Source: Deltaproteobacteria bacterium
GTDB lineage: Bacteria; Desulfobacterota; Desulfuromonadia; Geobacterales; Pseudopelobacteraceae
Length of the DNA: 40,802 nt
Assembly (NCBI GenBank): GCA_021782545.1
Contig: JAJXUW010000005.1
Coordinates: 1 to 40,802, forward strand
Direction of reading: 5' to 3'
Below the pieces are notes generated by a model that searched no databases, was not told the origin of the DNA, and saw only the letters and a list, made by a program, of their open reading frames with translations. A program made the translations under genes and the position numbers. This document shows positions 15,777 to 19,957 of the stretch, in pieces (the stretch's first letter is position 1; every line of letters begins with the position of its first letter).

Positions 15777-17429
15777 ATGTCTGATCCCCTGATTCCCCAC
15801 ACACCATCAGCCTACGACTACCCGCTTTTGATCAAAAACCTGCTGTTCTGCCCGGTTATCGATAATCCGGATCAGGAGATCGTGTACCGTCACCACCGCT
15901 TCACCTACCGTTGTCTGCGCCAACGGGTGGCGCAACTGGCCAATGCCCTGGCCGGGCTCGGCGTCAAGCGGGGTGATACCGTAGCGGTGATGGACTGGGA
16001 TTCACACCGCTACCTGGAATGTTTCTTCGCGGTGCCGATGATCGGGGCGGTCCTGCACACCATCAATGTGCGGCTGTCGCCGGAACAGATCCTCTACACC
16101 ATCGACCATGCCGAAGACGACCTGCTGCTGGTTAACGGCGAATTCCTGCCGATACTGGAACAGATCAAGGGAAGGATCGAGCAGTCCGGCACGGTGCGTG
16201 GTTACGTGCTGATGAACGACGAACCAACACTCCCCGCAAGCAGCATCCCCTTTGCCGGCGAATACGAGGCCTTATTGGCCAAGGCAGCGACAACGTTCGA
16301 CTTCCCTGACTTCGATGAGAACACCCGCGCCACCACCTTTTACAGCACCGGCACCACCGGCCTGCCCAAAGGGGTCTACTTCAGCCATCGCCAGTTGGTG
16401 CTGCACACCATGGGCGTGATGGCCATGCTGGGGTCATCCGTGGGGCACGGCAGCTTCAACCGGCAGGATGTCTACATGCCGATCACGCCGATGTTCCACG
16501 TCCATGCCTGGGGCCTGCCGTACGTAGCCACCATGCTGGGAGTCAAGCAGGTCTATCCCGGCCGCTATCTGCCCGATGTCCTGCTTGAACTGCGGGAAAA
16601 GGAAGGGGTGACCTTCTCCCACTGCGTCCCCACCATCCTGCATATGCTCCTCAAGCACCCGCATGCGCAACGTCTGGACCTCTCCGGTTGGAAATTGATC
16701 ATCGGCGGGGCGTCCATGTCCAAGGCACTCTGCCTGGAGGCGATGCAGCGGGGAATTGACGTCTTTACCGGCTACGGCATGTCGGAGACCTGCCCGATAC
16801 TGACGATTGCCCATCTCACCCCTGAACTCCTGGAGCTTTCGCACGAAGAACAGGCCGAGATCCGTTGCAAGACCGGCCGCACCCTGCCGCTGGTGGATCT
16901 GCGGGTGGTGGACAGCCACTTGCAGGAACAACCCCGCGATGGCCGGAGCAGCGGAGAAATTGCGGTACGGGCTCCCTGGCTGACCCAAGGTTATCTCAAG
17001 GATTACAAGGCATCGGAACGGCTGTGGGAAGGTGGCTGGCTGCACACCGGCGATGTGGCGGTGCGGGACGGTCTGGGCTATGTCAAGATCACCGACCGTA
17101 CCAAAGACGTGCTCAAGGTGGCGGGTGAATGGGTATCATCGCTGGAGCTGGAAGATATCATCGCCCATCATCCTGCCGTGGCCGAGGTGGCGGTGATCGG
17201 GCAGCCCGATGAAAAATGGGGGGAACGGCCCCTGGCGCTGGTGGTCGCCAGGCCGGCAACGGCCCTGACGGAGAAGGAGCTCTCCCACCATGTCATGGCA
17301 TATGCCGAAAAAGGGATTATCAACAAGCAGGTCGTGCTGCTGAAGATCAAACTGGTAGATCAGATCGACAAGACCAGCGTCGGCAAGATCAACAAGGTGG
17401 CACTGCGCGAAAAGCACCTCACGCCATGA
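15777..17429 (+). CDS. AMP-dependent fatty acyl-CoA synthetase/ligase
   Basis: FYSTGTTGLPKGVYFSHRQLVLHT, GYGMSETCPILTIAHL, WLHTGDVAVRDGLGYVKITDRTKDVLKVAGEWVSSLELED, C-terminal KTSVGKINKVALR. Confidence 0.93.
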   Translation: MSDPLIPHTPSAYDYPLLIKNLLFCPVIDNPDQEIVYRHHRFTYRCLRQRVAQLANALAGLGVKRGDTVAVMDWDSHRYLECFFAVPMIGAVLHTINVRLSPEQILYTIDHAEDDLLLVNGEFLPILEQIKGRIEQSGTVRGYVLMNDEPTLPASSIPFAGEYEALLAKAATTFDFPDFDENTRATTFYSTGTTGLPKGVYFSHRQLVLHTMGVMAMLGSSVGHGSFNRQDVYMPITPMFHVHAWGLPYVATMLGVKQVYPGRYLPDVLLELREKEGVTFSHCVPTILHMLLKHPHAQRLDLSGWKLIIGGASMSKALCLEAMQRGIDVFTGYGMSETCPILTIAHLTPELLELSHEEQAEIRCKTGRTLPLVDLRVVDSHLQEQPRDGRSSGEIAVRAPWLTQGYLKDYKASERLWEGGWLHTGDVAVRDGLGYVKITDRTKDVLKVAGEWVSSLELEDIIAHHPAVAEVAVIGQPDEKWGERPLALVVARPATALTEKELSHHVMAYAEKGIINKQVVLLKIKLVDQIDKTSVGKINKVALREKHLTP

Positions 17430-19957
17430 ATCCCGTTTTTTCCGCCGACTGCAGCGCCCTGATCAGCCACGAGATCATGGCAGCCCACGGTAACGAGGTG
17501 TTCTTCATCGCCCACCTTGATGCTGATGGTTGCATTGTCAGCGCCGAGGCGATTGCCCGCGGCAATCAGCAGGCGGTGCCGGCCATCCTCTCCCGGGCCA
17601 CTGCCGGCGAAATGGTGCTTCACAACCACCCCTCCGGCAATCTGACCCCCTCCGCAGCGGATCTCGACCTGGCCTCCATCTGCGGCAACAACGGTATCGG
17701 CTTTGCCATCATCGACAACCGGTGCGAACGCTGCTACCTGGTGGTCTCGCCCCACACCCCCCGCACCGGCGAACTGCTTGCCTTTGATGAGCTTGAGCGG
17801 GCCTTCGGGGGCGACGGAATGCTCGCCCACCACCTGAAAGGGTATGAACCACGCGCGGAACAACTACGAATGGCCTTTTGCGTGGCAGAGGCCTTCAACC
17901 ATGACAAGGTGGCGGCGATCGAGGCCGGCACCGGCACCGGCAAGTCCCTGGCCTACCTGGTCCCTGCCGTGCTCTGGGCGGTCCGCAACGAGCAGCGGGT
18001 GGTCGTCTCCACCAACACCATCAACCTGCAGGAGCAGCTGGTAAAGAAGGACATCCCCCTGTTGCAGCGTCACAGCAGCATCCCGTTCAACGCCTGCCTG
18101 GTAAAAGGGCGCAACAACTACCTGTGTCTGCGCAAGCTGCAGGCCGGCATTGCCGATCCGGTTCTGTTCCCGGACGCTGCCAGCGAAGAACTGAACGCCA
18201 TTGCCGCCTGGAGCGAGACCACCGCCAGCGGCTGCCGAAGCGATCTCTCCTTCCAGCCCAGCAACGAGGTATGGGATGACCTGCGCTGTGAGGCCGATCA
18301 GTGCGGCCGTTCCCGCTGTCCCCACTTTGGCCGTTGTTTCTTCTATCAGGCCCGGCGCGATGCGGCCTCGGCACAGCTGCTGGTGGTAAACCACGCCCTG
18401 CTCCTGGCCGATATCGCGCTGCGCCGGGAAAGCGGCTACGATGCCACCGCCATCTTGCCTCCTTTCAGCCGTCTGATCATCGATGAGGCCCATCACCTTG
18501 AAGAGGCGGCCACCAGTGCCCTGTCGGTACACATAAGCCGCGCCGGCGTGATGCGGCAACTGTCCCGCCTGGCACCGGCAGGCAGCCGCGCCGGCATCCT
18601 GACCCTCCTGAACAACAAACTGGGCAAAGAGCTGCCCGAACAGTGTGACGACCTGTATCAGGAGTTGTCCGGGCTGATCGAGGCGGCTCTGCTGCCCCAA
18701 ACCCACGAACTTGCGGCTCTGCTCGACCAAGAGCTTGATTGGCTGGCCCTCACCCTGCGGGAGATGCCGCTGCCGGGGACGGCAGGGCAGGCGGACCGCC
18801 AGCCGCGTGGTGAGATCAAGTACCGTATCACGCCTGAGGTACGGACAACGCCGTTATGGAGCGATCTTCAGGCGCGGCTGGGACGACTGGTGGAAAGGCT
18901 GGCCGAACTCTCGGCCGGCCTGGGGGCCTTGGACCGAGCCGCCGCCAAACTACCCGAACAGATCCGGCAAGGGCTCGACAGCTGGCTCACCGACGCCGCG
19001 GGCATCGCCCGGCGACTCTCCGCAACGGGCGATGAGCTGGGCTGGTTCTGCGGCCAGGACGAAGAGGTCTGCCGCTGGCTTGAGGTCAAACAAAGCAAGC
19101 GGGGCGATCAGGCCGCCATCTGCGTGGCACCGCTTGAGGTGGCCGGGACCATCAAGGCCGCTCTGTTGGAGCCGATCTCCACCGTGGTGCTGACCTCGGC
19201 TACCCTGACCGTGGGCGGTTCCTTCGGCTACCTGCGGCGACGTATCGGCTTGGACCTGCTGGATGCGGAACGATTGGAGGAATGTGCCCTGGCCTCCCCC
19301 TTTGATTATGCCAGACAGGCCCTGGTCGCCATTCCCCGCAATCTGCCGGACCCAACCAGTGCCGCCTTCCGTCAACCACTGGCCGATGCGATACTGCGGG
19401 CGGTATCCCTCTCCGGCGGCGGGGCCTTTGTGCTGTTCACCTCCTTTGCGCTGTTGCAGCAGACCCATGCGAGCCTGAAGGCGGACCTTGAACGACTGGG
19501 GCTGACGGTACTCCGTCAGGGCGAGGGGAGCGGGCGGCACCAGTTGCTGGCACGCTTTCGCAAAGAACGCCGCGCCGTGCTGTTCGGCACCGACTCCTTC
19601 TGGGAGGGGGTGGATGTGAAGGGGGACGCCCTGCGGCTGGTGATCATCACCCGTCTGCCATTCCAGGTGCCGAGCGAACCGATCCAGCAGGCGCGGGCGG
19701 AACGGATCGCCGCACGCGGCGGTGACCCGTTCCGGGAGATGTCGGTGCCCCAGGCGGTGCTCAAACTACGCCAGGGGTTCGGTCGGCTGATCCGCAGTCG
19801 TGACGACCGGGGTGCGGTACTGATCCTGGACAACCGAATTGTGACCAAAAACTATGGCAAACGGTTCCTTGCCTCACTACCGGCCACCGCCCAGGCCATT
19901 GACGATACGGATGGCGTATTCGGCCAGCTGGAACGTTTTTTTCTGTCCTGGCACTGA
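17426..19957 (+). CDS. DinG-family (XPD-like, Fe-S) ATP-dependent helicase with an N-terminal RadC-like JAB/MPN+ domain
   Basis: N-terminus: NEVFFIAHLDADGCIVSAEAI...VLHNHPSGNLTPSAADLDLA (JAMM motif). Then Walker A EAGTGTGKSLAYLVP, Fe-S cysteines CEADQCGRSRCPHFGRCFF, DEAH box LIIDEAHHLEE, motif VI-like QGFGRLIRSRDDRG. Confidence 0.93.
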   Translation: MNPVFSADCSALISHEIMAAHGNEVFFIAHLDADGCIVSAEAIARGNQQAVPAILSRATAGEMVLHNHPSGNLTPSAADLDLASICGNNGIGFAIIDNRCERCYLVVSPHTPRTGELLAFDELERAFGGDGMLAHHLKGYEPRAEQLRMAFCVAEAFNHDKVAAIEAGTGTGKSLAYLVPAVLWAVRNEQRVVVSTNTINLQEQLVKKDIPLLQRHSSIPFNACLVKGRNNYLCLRKLQAGIADPVLFPDAASEELNAIAAWSETTASGCRSDLSFQPSNEVWDDLRCEADQCGRSRCPHFGRCFFYQARRDAASAQLLVVNHALLLADIALRRESGYDATAILPPFSRLIIDEAHHLEEAATSALSVHISRAGVMRQLSRLAPAGSRAGILTLLNNKLGKELPEQCDDLYQELSGLIEAALLPQTHELAALLDQELDWLALTLREMPLPGTAGQADRQPRGEIKYRITPEVRTTPLWSDLQARLGRLVERLAELSAGLGALDRAAAKLPEQIRQGLDSWLTDAAGIARRLSATGDELGWFCGQDEEVCRWLEVKQSKRGDQAAICVAPLEVAGTIKAALLEPISTVVLTSATLTVGGSFGYLRRRIGLDLLDAERLEECALASPFDYARQALVAIPRNLPDPTSAAFRQPLADAILRAVSLSGGGAFVLFTSFALLQQTHASLKADLERLGLTVLRQGEGSGRHQLLARFRKERRAVLFGTDSFWEGVDVKGDALRLVIITRLPFQVPSEPIQQARAERIAARGGDPFREMSVPQAVLKLRQGFGRLIRSRDDRGAVLILDNRIVTKNYGKRFLASLPATAQAIDDTDGVFGQLERFFLSWH

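Follow-up and report, generated by a model that had tools for sequence, protein, structure and literature searches.

Between positions 17426 and 19957 of the window, that is, of the whole 40,802-nucleotide stretch analysed here, the forward strand carries one stop-free frame that starts with ATG and translates into 843 amino acids. Pfam matches follow one another along this protein, with RadC (PF04002) at residues 9-83, DEAD at 159-232, DEAD_2 at 301-372 and Helicase_C_2 at 656-820. The PF04002 match scores 32.3 bits, over a gathering cut-off of 22.1, and confirms the N-terminal segment as JAB; Helicase_C_2 scores 165.9 bits. Together with the homologue alignment, the Pfam search upholds the domains named in the initial annotation of this DNA, a RadC-type JAB domain with an intact JAMM site and a DinG/XPD-type Fe-S helicase, and the coordinates given there for the H-x-H...S-x2-D part of the motif (H66 to D79) are exact (Table 1). 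We consider the RadC-JAB/helicase architecture, and the assignment of the protein to the RadC-like DinG family, virtually certain.

Table 1. Features of the JAB-helicase gene, in window coordinates.
Feature	Position	Strand	Evidence or conservation
Complete CDS, RadC-JAB / YoaA-DinG helicase fusion	17426..19957	+	ORF, translation, Pfam; relatives equal in length and architecture
RadC-type JAB (MPN+) domain, residues ~5-119	17438..17782	+	Pfam PF04002; AlphaFold pLDDT 90.9; Foldseek top match RadC 2qlc
E24, JAMM glutamate	17495..17497	+	invariant 72/72; invariant in A1 and A2
HNHPSGNLTPSAAD, with H66, H68, S76 and D79 of the JAMM motif	17621..17662	+	invariant 72/72
Walker A GTGTGKS, residues 168-174	17927..17947	+	G170, G172, K173 invariant in homologues
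Predicted Fe-S domain	18125..18337	+	each Cys kept in 76-78 of 78 homologues
Fe-S cysteines C234; C293; C298; C304	18125-18127; 18302-18304; 18317-18319; 18335-18337	+	76-78 of 78 homologues
DEAH box, residues 353-356	18482..18493	+	D353, E354 78/78; H356 77/78
Motif VI QGFGRLIR, residues 783-790	19772..19795	+	R787 81/81; R790 80/80
Predicted C-terminal helix, residues 828-840, at the YoaA alpha-7 position	19907..19945	+	full-length AlphaFold, block pLDDT about 94

The fusion reported in the initial annotation is genuine. A frameshift or assembly artefact that united two genes can practically be dismissed, since dozens of separately assembled genomes, among them the single-contig genomes G060, G052, G053 and G057, show the same continuous frame, as do all 53 good genomes from the family of the host. 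Overall, 71 of the 76 family genomes have a match, nearly always full-length and in one frame, and the fusion is a standard gene throughout this family. In a few draft genomes (G074, G066) the gene is split in two pieces, which is the opposite error to joining.

Scanning the genomes of bacteria and archaea yielded at least 80 loci, most of them co-linear across the whole protein. The record titles of the matches listed span about nine phyla-level groups (Geobacteraceae, Planctomycetota, Sumerlaeota, Auribacterota, Acidobacteria, Bacillota, Fusobacteria, Spirochaetota and Desulfurellaceae), of which single taxon assignments may be wrong because many matches are metagenome bins; homologues listed include Trichlorobacter thiogenes, Oryzomonas japonica and Geotalea. 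JAB and helicase identities drop in parallel (90/85%, 63/59%, 46/42% and 38/33%), indicating that the two parts diverged together. Within the phylum, a survey of 247 genomes, in most of which three first-look candidates were scored, found co-linear matches over both domains in 22, plus one genome (G126) with a degenerate JAB domain; most of the other genomes with a strong match encode a helicase of about 650-680 aa that has no JAB domain. The host also encodes a separate canonical RadC (contig C8, 149.8 bits), so the fusion has not replaced RadC. A second DinG-family helicase was not detected in the host genome, which is 84% complete. Several family genomes, including those of L096 and L097, have a second, distant one of about 800-1000 aa, whose identity of ~30% is confined to the C-terminal part.

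The architecture itself is not new. RadC fusions to DinG/RAD3-like helicases were mentioned by Iyer et al. 2017 (PMC5512222), and Cheng 2025 (PMC11981726, section 3.8) named a subgroup 'RadC-like DinG' and modelled a member from Desulfuromonas soudanensis with Zn. Given these two records, the window protein is a further ortholog of an already described subgroup, and the tone of novelty in the initial annotation fails. As PMC11981726 describes the subgroup, its members share with the window protein an N-terminal RadC-like JAB in frame with a DinG-family helicase, a putative E/H/H/D metal site (here E24, H66, H68 and D79, invariant in 72 homologues), a four-cysteine Fe-S domain (predicted here), a YoaA-like alpha-7 helix (predicted by AlphaFold here) and a genome without HolC. 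As described, they show no substantial difference from the window protein, which comes from a Geobacteraceae-type genome. Cheng 2025 also notes that RadC-like DinG has seen no research and that no experiment on it exists. What the present analysis adds is the family-wide conservation, the absence of HolC, the scarcity of E2-like proteins, the lack of a cross-lineage partner, a tree that suits an old fusion, and the decay of the JAB domain in G126.

For the helicase part, the top NCBIfam model is that of YoaA (NF053712), at 583.5 bits and under the equivalog cut-off of 680, with the DinG models next. The full-length AlphaFold model (pLDDT 87.3) has a predicted helix at the position of the YoaA C-terminal alpha-7 helix, which is described in PMC11981726. 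Because the helicase is nearer to YoaA than to DinG, an R-loop/G4 role taken over from the E. coli DinG protein finds no specific support. E. coli YoaA, however, has no JAB domain and partners with HolC. HolC (PF04364) was absent from all 60 family genomes searched, including the host, while the E. coli and Caulobacter controls were positive; a HolC partner is thus rejected, and recruitment would differ from that of E. coli YoaA. Co-occurrence with HolC, by which PMC11981726 delimits YoaA, is accordingly not seen in the host's family. ExoDinG and Bacillus-type DinG (TIGR01407, PRK08074) also carry an extra enzyme domain ahead of a DinG-family helicase, but there the front is RNase_T/DnaQ whereas here it is a RadC JAB; the window protein scores under both cut-offs and has no Pfam match to the exonuclease family PF00929.

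By its predicted structure, the N-terminal domain has the RadC fold. A Foldseek search with the AlphaFold model of the first 125 residues (pLDDT 90.9) placed RadC 2qlc best (E about 2e-5), followed by the JAMM isopeptidases CSN5 and Rpn11, with modest TM-scores of about 0.5. Canonical RadC (PF04002; TIGR00608; PDB 2qlc) shares the JAB fold and the JAMM residues, but has no helicase. The window protein holds the complete JAMM set, E24, H66, H68, S76 and D79. The glutamate, which the initial annotation had not placed, is E24 in 'GNEVFF' according to the homologue alignment, in which E41 in 'SAEAIARG' varies. This alignment comprises 81 sequences, and in all 72 that have the N-terminal domain E24, H66, N67, H68, P69, P75, S76 and D79 are identical. 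As the JAMM residues stay invariant at JAB identities of 32-90%, the site is under selection.

It is conceivable that the metal site of the JAB domain is structural and that the domain serves mainly in regulation or in binding, be it of ssDNA or of a partner protein, or in oligomerisation. In G126 (L104 / L102, G126:C4:97589-100039) a domain at the JAB position is indeed still recognisable although all five JAMM residues are lost, with E24 replaced by G, HNH by RVR and S76 by E, and no D aligned at 79; a pseudo-exonuclease, pExoDinG, is named in PMC11981726 and offers a precedent. However, E24 and S76 do not vary in any of the 72 other homologues, and neither is expected to be necessary for structural Zn binding, which speaks against a metal site that is structural only. 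The JAMM residues are also kept in all seven checked relatives from the order of G126 whose N-terminus is complete. We regard a binding module as improbable. The helicase of G126 is intact, with Walker A, the Fe-S cysteines, DEAH and motif VI, so the reaction of the JAB domain is not essential to helicase function everywhere. A 'pseudo-RadC DinG' type of this kind is not mentioned in the accessible text of PMC11981726.

A tree built solely from the helicase region requires 3 changes of the JAB label, of which well-supported branches force two; shuffles require 13.9, and none of 500 came as low as 3. This pattern agrees with a single ancient fusion that was rarely replaced or decayed, though the deep branches of the tree are weakly supported. 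The exceptions within the JAB group are the G126 proteins and Peptococcaceae proteins with a DnaQ-type exonuclease. In L077 an RNase_T/DnaQ exonuclease occupies the N-terminal position of JAB, and the helicase groups weakly among the JAB-helicases (support 89, long branches). L077 and L078, both from Peptococcaceae, are exonuclease-type DinG; an exchange of N-terminal domains is possible, with moderate support and long branches.

The surroundings of the gene vary. Its ATG overlaps the stop of the upstream acyl-CoA synthetase gene (15777-17429) by 4 bases (ATGA), and such a synthetase lies near the JAB-helicase in only one other locus (L002), without overlap. At the sister locus L001 the JAB-helicase is instead preceded by the cobalamin-type gene that in the window lies ahead of the synthetase. 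Downstream synteny, with a membrane protein and a histidine kinase, is limited to the host's family. No neighbours recurring across lineages were found among the compared loci, and a conserved partner gene or operon is rejected. SOS control is rejected as well: a search with four LexA-box patterns gave nothing upstream of the window gene and three scattered matches in relatives. Universal presence in the family, combined with varied neighbourhoods, points to a self-sufficient maintenance function.

Most likely, the JAB domain works as a metal-dependent hydrolase on substrates that the helicase uncovers. Tentatively, we favour a chromosomal, housekeeping YoaA-like 5'-3' Fe-S helicase whose JAB domain hydrolyses, in cis, nucleic acid that the helicase lays open. 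According to this model, the helicase, like YoaA, would load on ssDNA where forks are damaged or stalled; JAB would hold Zn by H66, H68 and D79, with E24 as general base, and would hydrolyse a phosphodiester-type bond, at an end or a flap, thus taking the place that a DnaQ exonuclease holds in ExoDinG. The nucleic-acid reading is supported by the exonuclease found at the same N-terminal position in L077 and by Iyer et al. (PMC5512222), who suspected nucleic-acid processing from the same fusions; an earlier nuclease proposal for RadC was repeated in PMC3482391 (2012). Against it count the persistence of the G126 helicase with a dead JAB, the absence of an SOS box upstream in the window, and the literature searched, which yielded no report of a RadC/JAB protein with nuclease activity.

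Two further observations that weigh against hydrolysis of nucleic acid speak for a metallopeptidase, which would cleave DNA-bound or cross-linked proteins ahead of the translocating helicase and so be, in principle, a bacterial counterpart of the repair of DNA-protein crosslinks coupled to a helicase. The E/H/H/S/D constellation, including E24 and S76, is that of JAMM isopeptidases, CSN5 and Rpn11 being the best non-RadC structural matches, and the nearest folds that DALI gave for the RadC-like DinG domain in PMC11981726 are metalloproteases, with no nucleases. Having all JAMM peptidase residues makes the protease a close rival, although we think it rather unlikely: RadC JABs have no groove for a ubiquitin-type tail, as argued in PMC5512222, the domain is a compact 125-residue model, and E2-like proteins are scarce. 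The last of these were found in 4 of the 60 family genomes searched and neither in the host nor in 55 of its 59 relatives, so a ubiquitin-type substrate is unlikely and a ubiquitin-type conjugation context is rejected. The four cases (G038, G020, G041 and G025, relatives of one genus) have a Prok-E2_B domain in proteins of about 600 aa. That JAB frees replication proteins from a modifier of ubiquitin-like or sulfur-carrier (ThiS/MoaD) type, as its fold, its JAMM site and these four genomes might suggest, seems very improbable for a gene that is universal in a family where E2-like proteins are rare. With HolC in 0/60 and E2-like proteins in 4/60 genomes, recruitment by YoaA-HolC pairing and a role as deubiquitinase are both poor fits.

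Hydrolysis of exposed nucleic acid thus stays our preferred reading, and the proposal of the initial annotation, that adducts of protein or nucleic acid at stalled forks are acted on, is compatible with these data. JAB domains of the RadC family are widespread. We hold it nearly an even matter, though falling just short, that the domain is active in a way new for RadC, as a nuclease or a helicase-coupled protease, in what would be the default YoaA-type machine of a whole family, with scattered members in other phyla. Here such a domain is joined to a helicase whose type is known, and every good genome of a family with named, sequenced strains has the gene, which opens the way to a direct genetic test, and the naturally dead JAB of G126 provides a useful comparison.
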